Below, one piece after another: positions 1,591-16,463 of a stretch of 36,967 nt of DNA (the stretch's first letter is position 1; each line of letters opens with the position of its first letter). Below the pieces are notes generated by a model that made no database searches, was not told where the DNA came from, and worked only from the letters and a program-made list of their open reading frames with translations. This stretch comes from Clostridia bacterium (GTDB lineage Bacteria > Bacillota > Clostridia > Lachnospirales > Lachnospiraceae): contig QKDK01000197.1 in NCBI GenBank assembly GCA_003252135.1, forward strand, positions 1 to 36,967, in the 5' to 3' direction. A program made the position numbers and the translations under genes.

Positions 1591-3291
1591 TCAGTCTTCT
1601 GTTCCCTGAAGTGCATCGTATCCTTCTTCGCCGGTACGTACTCTGATAACATTTTCAACATCGTATACGAAGATCTTACCATCGCCGATATGTCCGGTAT
1701 AAAGAACTTTCTTTGTTGTATCGATAACTGTCTTCACAGGAACCTTACTTACGACCATTTCAACAAGAACTTTAGGAAGAAGTGTCATATCAACCGGAAC
1801 ACCGCGATAGAATTCACTCTGACCTTTTTGAACACCACAACCTAAAACATTGCTTACTGTCATACCGGTAACACCAATTTCATTCATTGCCGATTTGAAC
1901 TCTTCAAACTTATTCTGTTTCATAAGAATCTCAAGCTTTGTGATCTTAACATCAGAAGCAACAGGTGTTTTGGATGTCTTAAGCTGTACCGGTACTGCTT
2001 CATCAACATGCACTTCTTTGGAAGAAGTTTTAGCAGCAGAGGTATTGATAGTAGGAATAGAAGGCATAAAGTCAGCATAGCTGCTTGCAAGTCCGTGCTC
2101 TGTAGAGTCAAGACCAGCGATTTCTTCATGCTCTGAACAGCGAAGACCAATGGTGTGCTTGATGATCTGGAACAAAATAGTTGCAGTAACGGCAACCCAT
2201 GCAATAACAGAAGCAACACCGAGAGCCTGAATAGCAAGTGCATGTACGCCAAAGCCATAGAAAAGGCCTGTGGATGTTGAGAATAAACCAACAAGGATAG
2301 TACCAAGAGCACCGCAGATACCGTGAACACCAACAGCACCAACCGGATCGTCGACCTTGAGAACCTTCTCAATAAATTCAATACCGAATACAACTGCAAA
2401 ACCAGCGATAACACCAATGAAGAAAGAACCAACCGGGCTGACTGCATCACAGCCTGCTGTAATTGCAACAAGACCAGCGAGAGTACCGTTTAATGTCATG
2501 GAAATATCAGGTTTTTTATAACGGATCCAGGTAATGATCATAACTGTAATGGTAGATACAGCTGCTGCAAGGTTTGTTGTCATGAAGATATGACCCATGG
2601 CATCAAGAGAAGTATCTCCTTCAGCATTTACTGTAGAACCGCCATTGAAACCGAACCAACAGAACCAGAGAATGAAAACACCGAGAGCACCAAGTGTTAA
2701 GCTGTGACCAAGAATTGCCTTTGGCTTACCATTCTTGTCAAACTTGCCGATACGAGGTCCGATAATAAGAGCACCAACAAAAGCTGCAACACCACCAACC
2801 ATATGAACGGCTGTAGAACCTGCAAAATCATGGAAGCCAAGCTGTGATAACCAGCCGCCGCCCCATATCCAGTGACCGGAGATCGGGTAAATAAAACCTG
2901 AAATCACAGCACTGTAAATACAGTAAGAGATAAATTTTGTACGTTCAGCCATTGCACCAGATACGATTGTAGCAGAAGTTGCACAGAATACAACCTGAAA
3001 GATGAAGAATGCGTATTTTGGAACGCCTGCCGGAAGCATATCGGAATAAGCTCCCTGTGTTAATAAGTCAACACCACCGATAACCAGATTGTTGGTACCA
3101 AACATAAGACCGAAACCGATGAGCCAGAACATAGGTGTTCCGATACAGAAGTCCATCAGGTTCTTCATAATAATGTTACCTGCATTTTTAGCTCTTGTAA
3201 AACCAGTTTCTACCATTGCAAAGCCTGCCTGCATGAAGAATACCAAAGCTGCGGCCCATAAGACCCAAATAGTATTAGCGGATGAATACAT
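1591..3291 (-). CDS. Ammonium channel Amt fused to a C-terminal PII domain
   Basis: The first ~410 residues are a standard 11-helix Amt/Mep channel. The twin pore histidines lie in STAVHMVGG and GVHGICGALG, and the family C-terminal motif GLDSTEHG is present. A linker of about 35 residues rich in Ser, Thr, Val and Lys then leads into a complete PII (GlnB/GlnK) domain of about 118 residues. Its T-loop QSEFYRGVPVDM keeps the YRG arginine that in E. coli GlnK plugs the Amt pore, but Val replaces the uridylylated Tyr51. The B- and C-loop motifs GHIGDGKIFV and RVRTGEEG are present. The ORF track starts 5 codons earlier, but that ATG lies inside the GGGAGG ribosome site; the second ATG (MYSSANTIW) fits spacing and family, giving 566 residues. 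The protein presumably gates ammonium uptake through a tethered nucleotide/2-oxoglutarate sensor. It sits beside glnN, as expected for nitrogen assimilation. Confidence 0.93.
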   Translation of the reverse strand: MYSSANTIWVLWAAALVFFMQAGFAMVETGFTRAKNAGNIIMKNLMDFCIGTPMFWLIGFGLMFGTNNLVIGGVDLLTQGAYSDMLPAGVPKYAFFIFQVVFCATSATIVSGAMAERTKFISYCIYSAVISGFIYPISGHWIWGGGWLSQLGFHDFAGSTAVHMVGGVAAFVGALIIGPRIGKFDKNGKPKAILGHSLTLGALGVFILWFCWFGFNGGSTVNAEGDTSLDAMGHIFMTTNLAAAVSTITVMIITWIRYKKPDISMTLNGTLAGLVAITAGCDAVSPVGSFFIGVIAGFAVVFGIEFIEKVLKVDDPVGAVGVHGICGALGTILVGLFSTSTGLFYGFGVHALAIQALGVASVIAWVAVTATILFQIIKHTIGLRCSEHEEIAGLDSTEHGLASSYADFMPSIPTINTSAAKTSSKEVHVDEAVPVQLKTSKTPVASDVKITKLEILMKQNKFEEFKSAMNEIGVTGMTVSNVLGCGVQKGQSEFYRGVPVDMTLLPKVLVEMVVSKVPVKTVIDTTKKVLYTGHIGDGKIFVYDVENVIRVRTGEEGYDALQGTED

Positions 3292-3339
3292 AAGAAAACC
3301 TCCCATTTTTATTATTTTGTCTTACTGTGCAGTCTCACG

Positions 3340-3487: not shown

Positions 3488-3526
3488 ACACAAAGGCGTG
3501 TACCAAAATGATACACGCCTTTGTGT
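3488..3526 (-). terminator. Strong stem-loop downstream of glnN
   Basis: A perfect 15-bp inverted repeat, ACACAAAGGCGTGTA and its complement, with a 9-nt loop lies 30 nt beyond the glnN stop. On the glnN strand it is not followed by a uridine run, so it may be an mRNA-stabilising 3' stem or a weak or factor-dependent terminator rather than a classical intrinsic one. It also insulates the amt promoter. Confidence 0.65.
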
Positions 3527-3555
3527 CGAATAGGGATATGTGATAAGCAATAAAT

Positions 3556-5640
3556 TTAGAATAACAAATCACCGTATGTAGGATATGGCCAGTAAGCTCT
3601 TCCGACAAGTGTTTCAAGTTCATCACCGGAAACTCTGAGTTCCTGCATTGCTGGTAATACGGTATCACGTACATAATCTGCCTGTTCTTCGGCTCCTTCG
3701 CTATCATACAGGTGGAGAAGTACGTCTTCAAGTGTTGCTGTCTTCTGGCTTAAGCTATTCTGAAGAGTTGAGATCTTTTTCAGTAAAACAACGTCAGAAT
3801 CTGAGGAAACATCAATACCAAGTGCTGCTTTGGAGCTTGCGGAATCTGCAAGAACCTTTGTATAAGCTGCAGCAGCAGGGTAAATCTCTTTGTGTGACAT
3901 CTCAACCATTGTTAAAGCTTCAATGTTGATCTGCTTGCAGTAACCTTCCAGAAGAAGTTCACAACGTGAACGGATTTCTGATTCTGAAAAGATTTTATGT
4001 TTGGTGAACAGTTTAATGTTCTTGTCTTTGATAAAGTAAGGAAGAGCATCTGCTGTTGTCTTTAAGTTAAGTAATCCGCGTTTCTCAGCTTCAATTACCC
4101 ATTCCTCAGAGTAGTTGTTGCCATTGAAAAGAATACGCATATGAGCAGTAAGTGTTTCTTTAACGATCTTAGCGATCTCAGCATCAATATCAGATGCGGC
4201 TTCAAGCTTATCTGCTATCTCACTGAGAGCATCAGCCATAATGGTATTGAGTACAATGTTTGGTCCTGAGATAGAGAAAGAAGAACCAAGACTTCTGAAC
4301 TCGAACTTATTACCTGTGAATGCAAATGGTGATGTACGGTTACGGTCTGTAGTATCCTTCATGAAATCTGGAAGGGTATCAACACCTGTGATCATCAAAG
4401 CTGCTTCGCCGTCTTTTCTTGATGTTCCTGAAACGATTGCTTTAACAACTTCTTCAAGCTCACTTCCGAGGAAGATTGAGATGATAGCAGGAGGAGCTTC
4501 ATTAGCACCGAGACGATGATCATTTCCTGCACTTGCAACAGAAACACGAAGTAAATCCTGGTGATCATCAACTGCTTTAATGACAGCTGCAAGGAACAGT
4601 AAGAACTGCTTGTTCTCTGAAGGTTTCTTGCTCGGGTCAAATAAATTCTTTCCTGTGTTCGTTCCGAGTGACCAGTTGTTGTGCTTACCGCTTCCGTTAA
4701 CACCTGCAAATGGTTTCTCGTGAAGGAGGCAAACAAGTCCATGACGGTCAGCAACTTTCTTCATAATCTCCATAGTCAGCTGATTGTGATCAGTTGCAAG
4801 GTTCGTTGTGGAGAAGATAGGTGCTAATTCGTGCTGTGAAGGAGCTACTTCGTTGTGTTCGGTCTTTGCATAGATACCGAGCTTCCATAACTCTTCGTTC
4901 AGTTCTTCCATGTAAGCCATTACTCTTGGTTTGATAGCACCAAAGTAATGATCTTCAAGTTCCTGTCCCTTCGGAGGTTTTGCTCCAAATAAGGTTCTTC
5001 CTGTATATACAAGGTCTTTTCTTTTCTTAAAGAGCTCTTTATCAACTAAGAAATATTCCTGCTCTGGTCCAACAGTTGAAGCAACTCTTGTCACTTCCTT
5101 ATCACCGATGGCATGGAGCACTCTGACTGCTTCTTTGCTTACAAGTTCCATGGAACGAAGAAGAGGAGTTTTCTTATCCAGTACTTCACCGCCGTAAGAA
5201 CAAAAAGCTGTAGGAATGCAAAGTGAGTTTTCTTTTATAAATGCGTAGGAAGTCGGATCCCATGCGGTGTACCCTCTGGCTTCGAATGTTGCTCTTAAAC
5301 CGCCTGAAGGAAAGCTGGATGCATCTGGTTCACCCTGGATCAATTCTTTTCCTGAGAACTCCATAAGAATGCTTCCGTCGCTCTGCGGAGAGATAAAGCT
5401 GTCATGCTTCTCTGCAGTAACACCTGTCATTGGCTGGAACCAGTGAGTATAATGTGTTGCTCCTTTTTCAATTGCCCAATCTTTCATCGCATTAGCTACG
5501 ACGTTAGCTAAGGTAATATCAAGCTTAAGGCCTTCTTTAATTGTTTTCTGTAAAGACTTATAGATATCTTTTGGAAGTCTTTCTTTCATTACAGAATCGT
5601 TAAATACCAGACTGCCAAATGTTTCAGGTACGTTCGTCAT
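3556..5640 (-). CDS. glnN: Glutamine synthetase type III (GlnN)
   Basis: A 694-residue protein of the large type III glutamine synthetase family, which makes glutamine from glutamate, ammonia and ATP in the cytoplasm. Family hallmarks are visible: the N-terminal block ending THWFQPMTG, the signature [15 protein letters not shown], the metal-ligand region [33 protein letters not shown], and [14 protein letters not shown]. The ORF track extends 37 codons upstream, but that extension covers the leader hairpin and part of the promoter. The ATG at 5640 is preceded by GAAAGGAAA at suitable spacing and gives the family N-terminus ([14 protein letters not shown]). The gene diverges from the purA-type gene and has a consensus promoter plus an attenuator-like leader. 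It is probably the main ammonia-assimilating synthetase here, since the other homologue in the window has an altered active site. Confidence 0.96.
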
Positions 5641-5668: not shown

Positions 5669-5724
5669 AAAAATAGAAAAAGGTACCCTAAGAAATCCGA
5701 GTGAATTTCCCAAGCACCTTTGCT
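5669..5724 (-). terminator. Attenuator-like hairpin in the glnN leader
   Basis: Read on the minus strand, the leader folds into a long stem whose outer arms are AAAGGT and ACCTTT and whose inner arms are GAAATTC and GGATTTC, followed by TTTTTCTATTTTT. That is a plausible intrinsic terminator lying between the promoter and the glnN ribosome site. Its 5' edge overlaps a small hairpin AGC-AAAGGT-GCT (5713-5724) whose six-nt loop has A at position 1 and G at position 4, the pattern recognised by ANTAR proteins. A second hexaloop hairpin is not evident. The termination potential is seen in the sequence; ANTAR control is inferred. Confidence 0.6.
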
Positions 5725-5737
5725 GTTCATGTCGGTG

Positions 5738-5767
5738 ATTATAATACTCATGAATGGGGTTTGTCAA
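5738..5767 (-). promoter_or_regulatory. glnN promoter
   Basis: On the minus strand TTGACA (5762-5767) and TATAAT (5738-5743) are both perfect SigA hexamers with an 18-bp spacer. Transcription would start near 5732 and give a leader of about 90 nt that includes the attenuator-like hairpin. Such a strong promoter followed by a terminator suggests control after initiation. Confidence 0.8.
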
Positions 5768-5911: not shown

Positions 5912-5996
5912 ATAGACAACGACGTCTGAATCAGATAGTTCACCTTTTGGAAACTGCAAAGCAGCAGGGAAAAGCTGCATGCGGTTCTTCTGTTTT
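5912..5996 (+). promoter_or_regulatory. ANTAR-type antiterminator leader (two hexaloop hairpins plus terminator)
   Basis: Hairpin P1 is AGAC-AACGAC-GTCT (5914-5927) and hairpin P2 is CTGC-AAAGCA-GCAG (5954-5967). Both have six-nt loops with A at position 1 and G at position 4, the invariant pattern of RNA targets bound by ANTAR dimers. P2 overlaps the 5' arm of a terminator: AACTGCA-GCAGC pairs with GCTGC-TGCGGTT (5952-5986, 12 bp with a small internal loop), followed by the U-rich tail CTTCTGTTTT. P2 and the terminator are mutually exclusive, as in the EutV and NasR systems. An ANTAR gene lies 3 kb downstream in the same direction. No Rfam or covariance search was possible. Confidence 0.75.
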
Positions 5997-7654: not shown

Positions 7655-8893
7655 ATGTATTCGGAAGAAGAGGTTACCCAATTTATCCAGGAGAATGATG
7701 TAAAGTTCATTCGACTAGCATTTTGCGACATCTACGGAATACAGCGCAACATTTCAATCATGCCTACAGAGCTCGAACGTGCGATGCATGATGGAATTTC
7801 TTTTGATGCATCAGCACTCAGGGGATTTGGTGATGTTATTAACAGTGAATTGTTCCTGATTCCTGAACTGTCAACATTATCATTGCTGCCCTGGAGACCT
7901 ACTCATGGCAGAGTTGTACGTTTTTACTGCAACATTGTTTACCCGGATGGAACACCGTTTAAGATGGACAGCCGTTATATACTGAAGCAGGCTGTTGAAG
8001 AAGCAAGAAAAGAAGGCTTTATCTGCAACATCGGTACAGAATGTGAATTCTACCTGTTCCAGATGGATGCCGTAGGTAATCCTACAGATGTACCGCATGA
8101 TAATGCAGGGTATTTATCCATAGCACCGGAAGACAAAGGCGAGAATATCCGCCGCGAGATCTGTCTAACACTGGAGGAGATGGGCATAAGACCTGAATGC
8201 TCTTATCATGAAGAAGGACCGGGACAGCACGAGATCGATTTTATGTACAGCGATGCGCTGACGGCTGCAGACAATGTACTGACGTTCAAGTCAGTTGTTC
8301 GTACTCTTGCAGCACACAATGGCCTTCATGCAACATTCAGGCCAAAGCCAATTAAGACGCAGCCAGGCAATGGATTCCATGTCAATGTATCACCTCACAA
8401 AATGGGTGCCTTTGAGGATAATCCGGAGATCCTGGACAGTTTTATGGCCGGTATCATGAAGTATATAAGCGAGATGACCCTGTTCCTTAATCCATGCAGC
8501 GAATCCTATGAGCGTCTTGGCAATATGAAAGCACCAAAGTATATTTCATGGTCACCGCTCAACCGTACACAGCTTGTACGTGTACCGGCAGAACGCGGCG
8601 GGCACAGACGTGTTGAATTCCGTTCGCCTGACAGCATGACAAACCCGTATCTTGTCTGTGCACTGCTGATCTATGCAGGCATTGAAGGAATCAAGATGGG
8701 TCTGAAGCCTGAACCTGCATTGAACATCGACCTGATCAAGGCATCGGCAGATGAGGTCAGGAACCTTGAACGTCTGCCGCAAAGTTTCGAAAAAGCATAT
8801 GAACTTGCGATCAACAGTAATTTTATAAAATCACACATACCGGAAGAAATGCTTGAATGTTACCAAAAGCAAAATGATATGACAAAGATGTGA
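7655..8893 (+). CDS. Short type I glutamine-synthetase-like protein with altered flap residue
   Basis: A 412-residue protein of the glutamine synthetase superfamily (type I fold): N-terminal beta-grasp, then the catalytic barrel. Metal-site motifs are present: GTECEFYLF, GPGQHEIDF, GNGFHVNVS and RVEFRSPDSMTNPYL, plus NRTQLVRVP for the phosphate arginine. In normal type I enzymes the flap reads roughly PGYEAP with the Glu that deprotonates ammonium (Glu327 in Salmonella). Here it reads GNMKAP, putting Lys292 at that place. The protein may therefore use another amine, or be a sensor rather than a synthetase. The ORF track starts at a TTG (7631); I prefer ATG 7655, spaced from AAAGGATGG and AGAGG. 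It is followed after 17 nt by an ANTAR regulator. A glnA-nitR pair of this kind is, as I recall, known in Clostridium saccharobutylicum. Confidence 0.85.
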   Translation: MYSEEEVTQFIQENDVKFIRLAFCDIYGIQRNISIMPTELERAMHDGISFDASALRGFGDVINSELFLIPELSTLSLLPWRPTHGRVVRFYCNIVYPDGTPFKMDSRYILKQAVEEARKEGFICNIGTECEFYLFQMDAVGNPTDVPHDNAGYLSIAPEDKGENIRREICLTLEEMGIRPECSYHEEGPGQHEIDFMYSDALTAADNVLTFKSVVRTLAAHNGLHATFRPKPIKTQPGNGFHVNVSPHKMGAFEDNPEILDSFMAGIMKYISEMTLFLNPCSESYERLGNMKAPKYISWSPLNRTQLVRVPAERGGHRRVEFRSPDSMTNPYLVCALLIYAGIEGIKMGLKPEPALNIDLIKASADEVRNLERLPQSFEKAYELAINSNFIKSHIPEEMLECYQKQNDMTKM

Positions 8894-8910
8894 CGAAGGA
8901 GGATAATGCT

Positions 8911-9498
8911 ATGCTTTCCTCAATGAAAAATCACAATGTCCTTGTTGTGTCCAGTGTTGATAAAGGAATCAGTTTTTTTTCAGAACTGTTAGGGACAAAT
9001 GGAGACGAACCGGTATCAGTAGCACATAGTGGCAGCGAAGCCCGTAGAATGATGAATTCAGACAGCTATACCCTTGTTGTCGTTGACACCCCTCTTTCTG
9101 ATGAATTCGGACTGGAACTTGCAATTTATATTGCGGAGAATTCCAATGCCGGAACGATGCTGATCGTAAAAAGCGAGATATATGATGAAATCTGTTACAG
9201 GGTCGAAGATTATGGCATAATGACCATTTCCAAACCCATATCAAAGCAGTTGTTTCATCAGGCACATCGTATGCTGAATGCTGTTCGCGCAGGAATGCGG
9301 AAACTGGAAGAGGAGAATAGAAAGCTTCAGGTTAAAATTGAAGATTTACGTATGATAGACAGAGCAAAATATGTTCTTATGGAATACCTTAAGATGAATG
9401 AGGCCCAGGCACACAGATACATTGAGAAACAGGCAATGGATATGAGGATGACAAAACGGGCAGTTGCAGAAAGCATATTGAAAACCTACGTAAATTAG
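8911..9498 (+). CDS. ANTAR-domain antiterminator with degenerate receiver
   Basis: A 195-residue protein: a receiver-like domain (about 5-120), a coiled-coil linker (KLEEENRKLQVKIEDL), and a C-terminal ANTAR domain (about 140-192; MDMRMTKRAVAESILKTY). ANTAR domains bind paired hexaloop RNA hairpins and prevent terminator formation. Asp59 (VVVDTPLSD) and Lys108 (ISKPIS) match receiver positions. However, the acidic pair that binds magnesium is Ser14-Ser15 (VLVVSSVDKG), and the switch Ser/Thr region reads LIVKSE. Phosphorylation therefore looks doubtful, as in AmiR and NasT, which are controlled by partner proteins. The start at 8911 has AAGGAGG at ideal spacing; the upstream ATG of the track (8890) overlaps the previous gene. 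The upstream GS-like gene is the natural candidate partner. Confidence 0.88.
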   Translation: MLSSMKNHNVLVVSSVDKGISFFSELLGTNGDEPVSVAHSGSEARRMMNSDSYTLVVVDTPLSDEFGLELAIYIAENSNAGTMLIVKSEIYDEICYRVEDYGIMTISKPISKQLFHQAHRMLNAVRAGMRKLEEENRKLQVKIEDLRMIDRAKYVLMEYLKMNEAQAHRYIEKQAMDMRMTKRAVAESILKTYVN

Positions 9499-12311: not shown

Positions 12312-15300
12312 ATGCCGCTTGATAAAAGCATAAAAAAAGTATTGATTATAGGCTCGGGACCAATTGTGATCGGTCAGGCCGCGGAGTTTGATTATGCAGG
12401 AACCCAGGCATGCCGGGCGCTGAAAGAAGAAGGAATTAAGATTGTGCTCGTAAATTCTAATCCTGCGACCATCATGACAGACAATGTCATGGCTGATAAG
12501 ATTTATATAGAGCCTCTTAATTTAACAACAATAAAAAGAATCATAGAACTTGAAAGACCTGACAGTATACTGTCAGGATTCGGAGGACAGACCGGTCTGA
12601 CCTTGTCCATGCAGCTTGCCAGCGAAGGATATCTTGATCAGCAGGGTGTAAAACTATTAGGTGCTTCTCTTTCAACCATTGAAAAAGCCGAAGACCGTCA
12701 GATGTTCAAAGATACCATGCAGTCGATCGGACAGCCGTGCATACCGTCAAAGGTAGTGACCACGGTGGAGGATGCAGTTGATTTTACAAAAGAAATAGGA
12801 TATCCGATCATTGTACGTCCTGCTTATACCCTTGGCGGAAGCGGCGGTGGTATTGCAGAAAATGAAAAAGAGCTCCGCGATATTGCAGCTACCGGTCTTG
12901 ACTTATCGCCGATCACACAGATCCTTGTCGAAAAGTGTATATCCGGCTGGAAAGAAATCGAGTTTGAAGTTATACGTGACAAAGATGGAAATGTAATCAC
13001 TGTATGCTCCATGGAGAATTTTGATCCGGTAGGTGTTCATACAGGTGACAGTATTGTTATTGCACCTACCGTAACACTTGCGGATAAAGAGTTCCAGATG
13101 CTCCGTACCGCAGCACTTGATATAATCAATGAATTAAAAGTTGAAGGCGGATGTAACGTTCAGTTCGCTCTTCACCCAACATCGTTCGATTATGCAGTTA
13201 TAGAAGTTAACCCTCGTGTGTCCAGGTCATCAGCACTTGCTTCTAAAGCTACCGGTTATCCGATTGCCAAGGTTGCAGCTAAGATCGCTATCGGATACCG
13301 ACTTGATGAGATCATCAATGCAGTTACCGGAAAGACCTATGCAGCTTTTGAGCCAGCTCTCGATTATGTGGCAGTAAAATTCCCGCGCTGGCCATTTGAT
13401 AAATTTATTTATGCAAAACGTAATCTTGGTACACAGATGAAAGCGACAGGAGAGGTCATGGCAATTGCAGACAGCTTCGAGGCAGCGCTGATGAAAGCAG
13501 TAAGAGGTGTTGAGGTATCACTTGATACTTTACGTATGCCACGAATGGAAAAGTATTCCGATGCTGAATTGGAAGAAATCGTGATTCATCCGACCGATGA
13601 ACGTTTATTTGCTATATTTGAATTGCTCTACAGAGGAAGAACAATCGAAGAAATTCATGAGAAATCCATGATAGATAATTGGTTCCTTGAAAAAATTAAA
13701 TTATTATTTAACTTTGAGACAAACCGGCTTGGACTTGAAACAGGAAGCAATGAATGGTATGTGACAGGAAAGAAGCTTGGATACACTGATAAAGTTTTGA
13801 AACGAATGAACAATGGAACCATTCCTTTTGTACTGAAGGAATCCTACCATATGGTTGATACCTGTGCCGGCGAGTTCCCGGCAGAGACCCCTTACTTTTA
13901 CGGCGGATTCGATGTCAAAGAAAGCGGTGTGGAGAATGAAGCGCTTACCTTTATCGGAAAGAGTAAAAAACCAAGAGTGATCGTAATCGGTTCCGGACCG
14001 ATCCGAATCGGTCAGGGTATTGAATTTGATTACGCATGTGTTCACTGTGTTATGGCCTTACAGGAAATCGGATATGAAGTTATCATTATCAATAACAATC
14101 CGGAAACTGTTTCAACAGATTTCGACACAGCAGACAGACTGTATTTTGAACCGCTTCATGCAGAAGATGTCATGAATATCATTGAAATTGAGAAACCATT
14201 CGGTGTTGTGGTAGCATTCGGCGGTCAGACAGCAATCAAGCTGACGAATCATCTGGCAGCCAACGGGGTTCACATTATTGGTACATCGGCAGACGGTATT
14301 GACATGGCAGAAGACAGAGCAAGATTTGAGGCATTGCTTGAAAGTCTGAATATCAGTCGTCCGCAGGGATCGACTGTTATGACAACAGAAGAAGCTCTTG
14401 AGGTTGCCGCAAGACTTACTTATCCGGTTCTGATTCGCCCATCCTATGTACTTGGCGGTCAGAATATGATCATTGCCTATGAAGAAGCAGATGTAAAAGA
14501 GTATATGGAAGTAATCCTGCGCCAGAAACAGGATAATCCTGTATTGATCGATAAATATCTGAGCGGTATGGAAGTTGAAGTTGATGCGATCTGTGACGGA
14601 GAGAATATACTGATTCCTGGTATCATGGAGCATATTGAAAGAACAGGAATTCACTCAGGTGACAGTATTGCCGTATATCCGGGCCCTCATATTGATGATG
14701 AAATACGTGAACTGATCTTAAAGACAACTGAAAAGATCTGTAAAGGTCTGAAAGGGATTGGACTGATCAACCTTCAGTATATTGTAATGGACAAGGAACT
14801 CTACGTAATAGAAGTGAATCCAAGGGCATCACGTACTGTTCCATATCTCAGCAAGGTCACCGGCGTTCCTATGTGTGATCTGGCAACCAGAGCAAGTCTT
14901 GGCGAAAAATTAGTTAATATGGGATATGGTACAGGTCTGTATCCGATTTCTCCCTATACAGCAGTAAAGGTTCCGGTCTTTTCTTTTGAAAAACTGACAG
15001 ACGTAGATACACAGCTCGGGCCGGAAATGAAATCAACCGGCGAAGTACTTGGTCTGGGACGCAGCTTCCAGGAAGCTCTTTACAAGGGTATTGTTGCATC
15101 CGGCAGCAAGATGGAGAAGAGCGGCGGGGTTCTGATCACTGTCCGTGGAAGCGATAAGGTTGAAATCGTTGATGTGGCAAGAAAGTTCGAGAAGCTTGGC
15201 TTTACGTTATATGCAACCAGAGGCACTGCAAAAGTTTTGAGAAAGAGCGGACTCGAAGTAGAAACTGTGGCAAAGCTCCATGAATGGGAAGCAGAGAATG

Positions 15301-16463
15301 GTGAATTACTTGTTACAGAACAGATAGAACAAAACGAAGAAACAGAAAATAGTGATAAACCGGCTATGAACACCATGCAGCTGTTAGAGAGCGGAAAGAT
15401 AAAATACCTTCTCTCCACTTCGGCCAAGGGACGTAATCCTGCAAGAGACAGTGTTAAGTTAAGAAGAAAAGCCTGCCGTCTTGGCATTCCATGCCTGACT
15501 TCACCAGACACCGCCAATGCATTGGTAGACAGCCTGCTGAGTAATTTCACTTTATTAAATTCTGAGGTAATTGATATAAATCATCTTGACAGTGAAAGAT
15601 TGAAGCTGAAGTTTGCCAAGATGCAGACCTGTTCCAATGACTATATATATATTGACTGTATGGATAAAGAGATTGCTTCCCCTGAATTCCTGTCTGTAAC
15701 ATTACCAGAGCGCCACAAAGGCATCGGCGGTGATGGAGTCATACTCATTGAGAAGTCGGAGATCGCTGATGCAAAGATGCGTATGTTCAACATGGATGGA
15801 AGTGAAGGACAGATGGCTGGCAATCCGATCCGCTGCGTGGCTAAATTCCTTTATGATAAAGGGATTGTCAGGAATAAGCTTGTGAACATTGAAACAAAGA
15901 GCGGTGTAAAGCAATGCAAGCTTTATACCAAGAACAGCATGGTCTATAAGGTGGAAAGTGAGATGGGCAAGGCCGTTCTTACACCTGCTGAAATTCCAGT
16001 AGCACTTCCTAAAAGCATGAAGACCAAAGATACTGAGAAAATGATCATGAATCAGGATTACAGTATTGGTGGTGTTGATTACAAGATATCCTGTGTATCC
16101 ATGGGCAATCCTCATTGTGTCGTATTCACAGATGCGGTGGACAGTCTGGATCTTGGTGTAATCGGACCGATGTTTGAGCATGACAAGCTGTTCCCGGAAC
16201 GTGTCAATGCAGAGTTCGTTGAATTAGTCAGCGCTCATACCATAAAGATGCGCGTATGGGAAAGAGGAAACGGCGAAACAAAAGCATGCGGAACAGGTGC
16301 ATGTGCAGGAGCAGTTGCTGCAATCCTGAATGGATATTGCAAGAGCGATAAACCGATCAAAGTTATGCTGCCAGGCGGAGATCTTTATGTTACCTATACG
16401 GATGAAGGGGTAATCCTTTCCGGAGATGCAGAAAAAGTCTACGAAGGTATTGTAGTGGTATAA
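12312..16463 (+). CDS. carB: Carbamoyl-phosphate synthase large subunit fused to a DapF-like domain
   Basis: A 1383-residue protein. Residues 1 to about 1070 are a complete CarB: two ATP-grasp halves, each opened by a GSGP-IG-GQ motif (GSGPIVIGQAAEFDYAG and GSGPIRIGQGIEFDYA), and an MGS-like allosteric domain (STSAKGRNPARDS). Residues ~1094-1383 form a full-length diaminopimelate epimerase fold: FAKMQTCSNDYIYID, MRMFNMDGSEG, GNPHCVVF, NAEFVE and the second catalytic cysteine in ETKACGTGACAGAVAA (Cys1326). The first catalytic cysteine, expected as CGNG, reads AGNPIRC with Ala1169. The frame is open across the junction, with no stop and no convincing internal start, so the fusion appears genuine. 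dapL lies two genes downstream, suggesting dapF was once a neighbour. CarB function is secure; epimerase function is doubtful unless another residue substitutes. Confidence 0.93.
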   Translation: MPLDKSIKKVLIIGSGPIVIGQAAEFDYAGTQACRALKEEGIKIVLVNSNPATIMTDNVMADKIYIEPLNLTTIKRIIELERPDSILSGFGGQTGLTLSMQLASEGYLDQQGVKLLGASLSTIEKAEDRQMFKDTMQSIGQPCIPSKVVTTVEDAVDFTKEIGYPIIVRPAYTLGGSGGGIAENEKELRDIAATGLDLSPITQILVEKCISGWKEIEFEVIRDKDGNVITVCSMENFDPVGVHTGDSIVIAPTVTLADKEFQMLRTAALDIINELKVEGGCNVQFALHPTSFDYAVIEVNPRVSRSSALASKATGYPIAKVAAKIAIGYRLDEIINAVTGKTYAAFEPALDYVAVKFPRWPFDKFIYAKRNLGTQMKATGEVMAIADSFEAALMKAVRGVEVSLDTLRMPRMEKYSDAELEEIVIHPTDERLFAIFELLYRGRTIEEIHEKSMIDNWFLEKIKLLFNFETNRLGLETGSNEWYVTGKKLGYTDKVLKRMNNGTIPFVLKESYHMVDTCAGEFPAETPYFYGGFDVKESGVENEALTFIGKSKKPRVIVIGSGPIRIGQGIEFDYACVHCVMALQEIGYEVIIINNNPETVSTDFDTADRLYFEPLHAEDVMNIIEIEKPFGVVVAFGGQTAIKLTNHLAANGVHIIGTSADGIDMAEDRARFEALLESLNISRPQGSTVMTTEEALEVAARLTYPVLIRPSYVLGGQNMIIAYEEADVKEYMEVILRQKQDNPVLIDKYLSGMEVEVDAICDGENILIPGIMEHIERTGIHSGDSIAVYPGPHIDDEIRELILKTTEKICKGLKGIGLINLQYIVMDKELYVIEVNPRASRTVPYLSKVTGVPMCDLATRASLGEKLVNMGYGTGLYPISPYTAVKVPVFSFEKLTDVDTQLGPEMKSTGEVLGLGRSFQEALYKGIVASGSKMEKSGGVLITVRGSDKVEIVDVARKFEKLGFTLYATRGTAKVLRKSGLEVETVAKLHEWEAENGELLVTEQIEQNEETENSDKPAMNTMQLLESGKIKYLLSTSAKGRNPARDSVKLRRKACRLGIPCLTSPDTANALVDSLLSNFTLLNSEVIDINHLDSERLKLKFAKMQTCSNDYIYIDCMDKEIASPEFLSVTLPERHKGIGGDGVILIEKSEIADAKMRMFNMDGSEGQMAGNPIRCVAKFLYDKGIVRNKLVNIETKSGVKQCKLYTKNSMVYKVESEMGKAVLTPAEIPVALPKSMKTKDTEKMIMNQDYSIGGVDYKISCVSMGNPHCVVFTDAVDSLDLGVIGPMFEHDKLFPERVNAEFVELVSAHTIKMRVWERGNGETKACGTGACAGAVAAILNGYCKSDKPIKVMLPGGDLYVTYTDEGVILSGDAEKVYEGIVVV

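Follow-up and report, generated by a model that had tools for sequence, protein, structure and literature searches.

Glutamine synthetase homologues linked to ANTAR proteins form a probable nitrogen switch in Clostridia

Two adjacent genes, coding for a glutamine synthetase (GS) homologue and an ANTAR protein, probably form a pair which senses cellular nitrogen and switches on ammonium-assimilation genes by blocking early termination, as judged from comparison of sequences. In many gut or anaerobic Clostridia, the alignments indicate, catalytic residues of the GS homologue are often lost and amino-acid-binding ones are usually kept. We consider it rather likely that the pair is a nitrogen switch of the NitR kind, with the GS partner acting mainly or solely as an amino-acid sensor and catalysis passed to type III GS (GSIII). 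To our knowledge, nitrogen sensing is poorly understood in Lachnospiraceae-like bacteria, Ruminococcus and related gut anaerobes.

The window, i.e. the whole stretch of 36,967 nucleotides that was analysed, is one contig of an assembly of 3.57 Mb in 399 contigs, 80% complete. Its + strand carries purA, the GS-like gene, the ANTAR gene, purF, carA and a carB-dapF fusion, and the neighbours of the GS-like/ANTAR pair on the - strand are glnN and an ammonium transporter gene. What was computed directly is linkage of the two genes, receiver degeneration, loss and retention of GS residues, and an RNA element that co-occurs with ANTAR. The features are:

1591..3306, - strand: ammonium transporter amtB, proposed regulon member (sequence; an element precedes homologous amtB in other genomes)
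3492..3528, - strand: C[AAAGGC]G hexaloop in a hairpin between glnN and amtB (covariance model R1, 30.1 bits, E 5e-5; the seed alignment included this copy)
3556..5640, - strand: glnN, type III GS (PF12437, PF18318), start ATG 5640 after the leader
5671..5767, - strand: glnN leader with promoter, hexaloop and terminator with U-tract (sequence, folding, R1)
7655..8893, + strand: GS-like protein, 412 aa, type I GS (GSI) family, proposed sensor and partner (ATG 7655, stop 8893)
7832..7834, + strand: Asp60 in place of B. subtilis Arg62, the feedback arginine
8528..8530, + strand: flap codon AAA, Lys292, replacing the catalytic Glu (Salmonella E327; B. subtilis flap Glu302/304)
8911..9498, + strand: ANTAR protein, 195 aa, with pseudo-receiver, coiled coil and ANTAR RNA-binding domain (PF03861, receiver columns, model)

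The product of glnN is likely the catalytic GS of this genome, and the gene is also a proposed target. The amtB frame is 571 aa long, and the C-terminal part of its translation resembles, by reading, a PII signalling domain. A single 1383-aa frame at 12312-16463 joins the carbamoyl-phosphate synthase large chain to diaminopimelate epimerase (carB-dapF); two other genera have similar-ended frames, 1349-1350 aa long (L057:705-4754 and L080:10186-14238).

The first-pass annotation of this DNA had described the two genes as 17 nt apart, the GS homologue as having GNMKAP for PGYEAP while keeping its metal-site motifs, and the receiver as missing its acidic pair. These readings agree with our data: both genes were found as described, separated by positions 8894-8910. 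The GS-like protein matches PF00120 (E 3e-85) and PF03951 (E 3e-21), scores 324 bits, below the cut-off of 429.15 for NCBIfam GlnA TIGR00653, and gives an AlphaFold2 model with pLDDT 89 and pTM 0.91. When it is aligned with solved GS chains, SYERL-GNMKAPKYISW stands under SYKRLvPGYEAPVYISW, with a one-residue deletion just ahead of Lys292, which exactly occupies the column of the flap Glu; in relatives that share the deletion, this column holds Glu (GEMEAP, GENEAP). The PDB-chain alignment and these relatives rule out a flap Glu at a shifted position, and the Glu-to-Lys change is a true one. Apart from it, the checked catalytic residues are present (14/15), metal ligands and glutamate-backbone residues included, and judging by these the protein may retain some enzymatic activity.

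Asp60 and Lys292 constitute a reversed charge pair; the feedback arginine is lacking in the window's clade. An acidic residue occupies site 62 in 21/41 proteins with flap K/R versus 16/125 with flap E/D. A single compensating swap of Glu-Arg for Lys-Asp was considered and is weakened as an explanation, because Asp, Gly or Asn stands at the Arg62 site also beside a flap Glu in the same clade. The C-terminal "thong", the tether of the two GS rings, is absent from the window protein and from 21/23 rows of its clade but present in 91/91 others; the usual double ring is therefore probably not formed in this clade.

The ANTAR protein matches PF03861 (E 2e-15, 56.6 bits versus cut-off 27.3), and its Response_reg score of 27.6 bits lies under the cut-off of 30.2. 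The residue set of a phosphorylation-controlled, EutV-type response regulator (acidic pair, phospho-Asp, Thr, Lys) is incomplete in its receiver: Ser-Ser occupies the columns of the acidic pair and Val that of Thr, and the phospho-acceptor Asp and Lys are still there. The receiver is thus degenerate, not wholly stripped; its nearest relatives mostly have Asn at the phospho-acceptor column. The structural model (pLDDT 92) matches AmiR (1qo0) and the EutV-RNA complex 6ww6 (TM 0.76), the latter being the closest full-length solved ANTAR structure by TM-score. The acidic pair is retained in 0/142 GS-linked versus 5/12 unlinked receivers (p 1e-6), and phospho-Asp in 6/142 versus 11/12. Since the acidic pair is absent from all GS-linked ANTARs, receiver degeneration is a property of GS linkage, not of flap-Lys proteins.

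This linkage was surveyed in 150 genomes of the window's family, nearly all one per genus, with most ANTAR regions retrieved. An ANTAR domain, almost always single, is present in 131/150 genomes, and every complete receiver-ANTAR examined in the family directly follows a co-oriented GSI homologue (128/128). Beyond the family, 28/40 loci of the class are GS-linked. Among the nearest relatives in named genomes 73/79 are linked, with four more at contig edges; linked relatives include Sedimentibacter, Niameybacter, Acetanaerobacterium, C. methylpentosum, many Ruminococcus and Oscillospiraceae, and a few spirochaete MAGs.

Three ANTARs lack a receiver (two PyrG-ANTAR fusions and one 67-aa ANTAR-only protein), and their three genomes are the ANTAR-positive ones without GSI. 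One fusion is a complete CTP synthase (PyrG) with C-terminal ANTAR (L112:7625-9373, - strand), and its genome carries the hexaloop element described below before glnN; the other, from a different genus, is cut by the contig end (L132:6816-7118, - strand). The 585-aa ANTAR frame in genome G019, considered as a GS-ANTAR fusion, was rejected as such, being a CTP synthase-ANTAR fusion. The 67-aa protein, scarcely more than an ANTAR domain, adjoins a gene similar to LL-diaminopimelate aminotransferase (L133:6926-7129, - strand); its genome has apparently lost the receiver along with GS. As for ANTAR-negative genomes with GSI, the contig of G137 stops inside the GS gene, and the other three have longer frames, of 474-479 aa, presumably of another GSI type. 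A genus-mate of the window (L052, genome G039) has an ANTAR-linked GS from the other main clade, with four of its catalytic residues gone; it seems that the two genes were exchanged together within the genus, unless the contig was misplaced in assembly.

While the linkage is constant in the family, the GS itself is not. All 15 catalytic positions are kept in only 49/128 family GSs; 71/128 retain the flap Glu and 57/128 do not, and metal ligands are lost in 20/114. Residues E131, H210, G265 and R321 are invariant (128/128), and R339, R355, R344, D50 and E327 are often changed. Named relatives keep R321 in 72/72 and E131 in 69/71 cases, and two near relatives (L270, L288) have neither E131 nor G265. 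In B. subtilis, the equivalents Glu132, Gly239 and Arg296 contact amino and carboxyl groups of Met-Sox, and Arg314, Arg329, Arg333 and His243 contact the phosphate of the substrate analogue (PMC9249791). Three of the four invariant residues thus hold the amino-acid backbone of Glu/Gln. Taken together, the invariance pattern and these contacts indicate that the amino-acid backbone site is kept, with the ammonium, phosphate and n2-metal sites free to change. A Ruminococcus group of ANTAR-linked GSs carries E129K, E212K, H269T/S and mostly E327G; these substitutions are hard to reconcile with catalysis. Such Ruminococcus-type GSs, with two metal-site Glu changed to Lys (or Arg), were seen at L256, L258, L260-L262, L264, L267, L271 and others.

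On the GS tree, where the window protein falls into a clade of 23 (SH-aLRT 100), the flap changed between acid and non-acid state at least 15 times, and loss of metal ligands required at least 10 changes. GSIII is encoded in 148/150 family genomes. In G083, the sole ANTAR-positive genome without it, none of the 15 GS residues is lost, as expected if GS decay needs a substitute enzyme. Receiver degeneration and GS decay are not simultaneous; GS decay is later and repeated. The first-pass annotation had proposed as a test that the flap Lys and the degenerate receiver co-occur, which as stated they do not: all GS-linked ANTARs are degenerate, also beside fully catalytic-looking GSs, and the flap loss affects part of the family (57/128) and occurred repeatedly. 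Its broader idea of a GS sensor acting on a non-phosphorylated ANTAR protein has gained strong comparative support (128/128 linkage, 28/40 beyond the family, acidic pair 0/142 versus 5/12, backbone contacts).

The proposed RNA counterpart of the pair is a hairpin in which a C-G pair closes a short stem over the loop AARGGC. Loop and 3' arm together make up the 5' arm of an intrinsic terminator, and the stem's own 5' arm lies outside that terminator. Covariation was assessed on sequences picked by the terminator, not by the hexaloop stem: 94% of cells are paired, with 38 double-change cells versus 12.4 in shuffled alignments, and slid versions of the stem reach at most 53% pairing. The hexaloop C[AARGGC]G follows the A1/G4 rule of ANTAR targets, and hexaloop, short stem and terminator overlap, by which Ramesh 2012 defined such targets, are all present. 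The two hexaloops (P1 + P2) of the same work are not: around the element no conserved second hexaloop was found, and a P2-like loop does not keep A1. The path to the single-hexaloop element was a search for dual hexaloops before glnA, with 9/114 hits versus 1.4 expected. In 29/47 cases versus 1/47 shuffled controls the loop lies 9-32 nt downstream of the end of a near-consensus promoter; the hairpin therefore lies at or near the 5' end of the transcript, usually with no space for an upstream P1. EutV-RNA work defines the minimal ANTAR motif as one hexaloop with G4 (PMC8934654).

Genes downstream of the element, identified by reading of their sequences, are glnN, amtB, gdhA, asnB, gltB, pyrG, purF, an AGCS transporter, canonical glnA and some pseudo-GS; the element also precedes glnN in Sedimentibacter saalensis, C. 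cuniculi and Yanshouia hominis. Using a covariance model at E <=1e-3, and leaving out G137 with its cut-off ANTAR region, we found the element in 93/131 ANTAR-positive versus 1/18 ANTAR-negative genomes (Fisher, p 9e-8; the genomes are related, not independent events). Weak matches occur in a few ANTAR-negative genomes (G048, G072). Judged by these features, the hexaloop element is the probable RNA target of the ANTAR protein. Paired nearby copies were seen in a congener of the window, in tandem at L185:5241-5321 and at L186:720-758 and 2353-2392, the 2353 copy preceding an asparagine-synthase-like gene.

In the window, the glnN leader contains a promoter (TTGACA 5767-5762, TATAAT 5743-5738, - strand) and the hexaloop AGC[AAAGGU]GCU at 5724-5713, overlapping a terminator of -19.5 kcal/mol (z -4.1). 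Its match to R1 (5727-5677, 15.5 bits, E 0.26) is weak on its own. The hairpin at 3492..3528 precedes the own promoter of amtB and has no clear U-tract, so it is possibly just the glnN terminator. No element was found in the leader of the window's GS-like/ANTAR operon, and an Rfam scan of the window gave no match. Two further elements occur elsewhere in the genome, upstream of an apparent kinase/branched-chain-type ABC cluster and of an apparent BMP-type ABC cluster. The purA leader region (5913-5967, + strand) contains two A1/G4 hexaloop hairpins with no clear terminator, possibly by chance.

We infer from these data that the GS homologue binds the ANTAR protein directly and controls it in the following way. 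The receiver would take its input from the neighbouring GS homologue, not from phosphorylation. With the amino-acid site filled, under nitrogen-replete conditions, the GS homologue would hold the ANTAR protein; with the site empty, under nitrogen limitation, it would release it. The ANTAR protein would bind transcripts for nitrogen assimilation, that of glnN among them, at the hexaloop of their 5' end, where the freed dimer would stabilise the hairpin, block the overlapping terminator and so allow the genes to be read. In the window's lineage GSIII would do the catalysis and the GS homologue would survive mainly or only as a sensor. The ligand would ancestrally be glutamine. The flap Lys puts a positive charge where the glutamine amide was received, which suits a carboxylate, and in proteins carrying it glutamate would be an equally possible ligand. 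By analogy, binding of Bacillus TnrA and GlnR at GS is a plausible model for flap residues retuned to a partner.

An unlikely alternative, in our estimate, is that the GS is still a working ligase, perhaps minor or of altered specificity, and that the ANTAR gene is adjacent because its product regulates that operon, without any sensing by GS. The 14/15 residues of the window protein and the 49/128 fully catalytic-looking GSs fit this explanation, and canonical glnA leaders bear the RNA element themselves, so that autoregulation alone could explain the adjacency there. The linkage nevertheless persists despite metal-ligand loss in 20/114 GSs and the Ruminococcus substitutions E129K/E212K/H269T-S, and GSIII is almost universal. 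The window's own operon leader carries no element, which makes this operon no obvious autoregulated target, and GS-linked receivers without the acidic pair need some non-phosphate input. That input being phosphate after all, with the GS adjacency merely historical, is very improbable: the phospho-acceptor Asp and Lys in the window receiver speak for it, against the Ser-Ser pair of the same receiver, the complete absence of the acidic pair from GS-linked receivers (0/142, with Asp in only 6/142) and the Asn found mostly at the Asp column of the nearest relatives.

The hexaloop-terminator could also be real but read by another factor, or be an ordinary conserved terminator, with the GS-ANTAR pair regulating something else. 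The exact A1/G4 hexaloop, the covarying stem with its 5' arm outside the terminator, the promoter immediately upstream (29/47 versus 1/47 shuffled), the nitrogen genes downstream and the near-absence of the element without ANTAR make this less likely still than a working ligase, even though there is one hexaloop instead of the EutV dual motif, the hairpin before the window amtB is symmetric and without U-tract, and some ANTAR-negative genomes give weak matches. The switch of the NitR kind, which we prefer, has its own counter-evidence: a single hexaloop was seen where EutV antitermination needs two; the window GS keeps 14/15 residues, its glnN element is weak and the amtB-side hairpin has no U-tract; its own operon leader has no element, G048 and G072 give weak matches, and L270 and L288 are without E131/G265. 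The chances are about even for a wider statement, that clostridial GS homologues repeatedly turned into dedicated, catalytically dead sensors of amino acids, gating an antiterminator through a pseudo-receiver and controlling a family-wide single-hexaloop nitrogen regulon, and that ANTAR in some genomes was fused instead to CTP synthase, another enzyme that uses glutamine.

If true, this would be a general nitrogen switch for these anaerobes, in which GS has turned into a receptor and acts on RNA instead of DNA. It would provide a gradation found in nature, with full enzymes at one end and metal-less pseudoenzymes at the other, in which sensing can be told apart from catalysis; a predicted regulon and a ready reporter assay; and a candidate, present in many genomes, for the kind of ANTAR target with one hexaloop that the EutV structure paper deemed possible (PMC8934654). 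ANTAR beside glnA, partner-controlled pseudo-receivers, GS-bound regulators and ANTAR targets before nitrogen genes are already known singly. Their combination, the repeated GS decay with intact backbone site, the single-5'-hexaloop regulon and the CTP synthase-ANTAR fusion are unreported in the literature searched, the NitR originals being outside its coverage; nor did that literature, which leaves out most subscription papers, contain a GS pseudoenzyme regulating ANTAR.

The closest known system is NitR. This ANTAR protein adjoins glnA in Clostridium saccharobutylicum, an adjacency already mentioned in the first-pass annotation, and is reported to induce GS/GOGAT genes on nitrogen limitation (review PMC6316151); a similar ANTAR gene in C. 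thermocellum is Clo1313_2030 (PMC6316151, PMC4676874). In both systems a GSI gene and genes of ammonium assimilation are linked with an ANTAR antiterminator, and our loci have GSI directly upstream of the ANTAR gene and nitrogen-gene leaders as putative targets. In NitR, however, glnA is treated as an enzyme, whereas the window GS is without flap Glu, Arg62 equivalent and C-terminal thong. GS as a sensor, a single 5' hexaloop and a GSIII/amtB regulon are not described for NitR in the accessible literature, which does not include the original NitR papers.

In AmiC-AmiR and NasS-NasT, a neighbouring ligand-binding protein controls the ANTAR protein by binding, not by phosphorylation (PMC3369931, PMC3795266). 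The pair described here likewise joins a pseudo-receiver ANTAR to a neighbouring gene for a proposed ligand-binding partner, ligand binding being judged from residues only; unlike there, the partner is a GSI homologue and not an AmiC/NasS-like binding protein. Resemblance to EutV lies in the ANTAR fold (TM 0.76 to 6ww6) and the A1/G4 hexaloop overlapping a terminator, but the EutV receiver works and its RNA offers two hexaloops, contacted in turn, in place of one 5'-end hexaloop and a receiver without acidic pair. Finally, the feedback-inhibited GS of Bacillus senses glutamine in its active site, where the tails of TnrA and GlnR bind at the flap and D50 loop (PMC9249791). Our GS homologue is proposed similarly to sense in its amino-acid site and to control a regulator by direct binding; the difference is that it has lost catalytic residues and that its proposed target is an RNA-binding ANTAR protein with no TnrA/GlnR tail.
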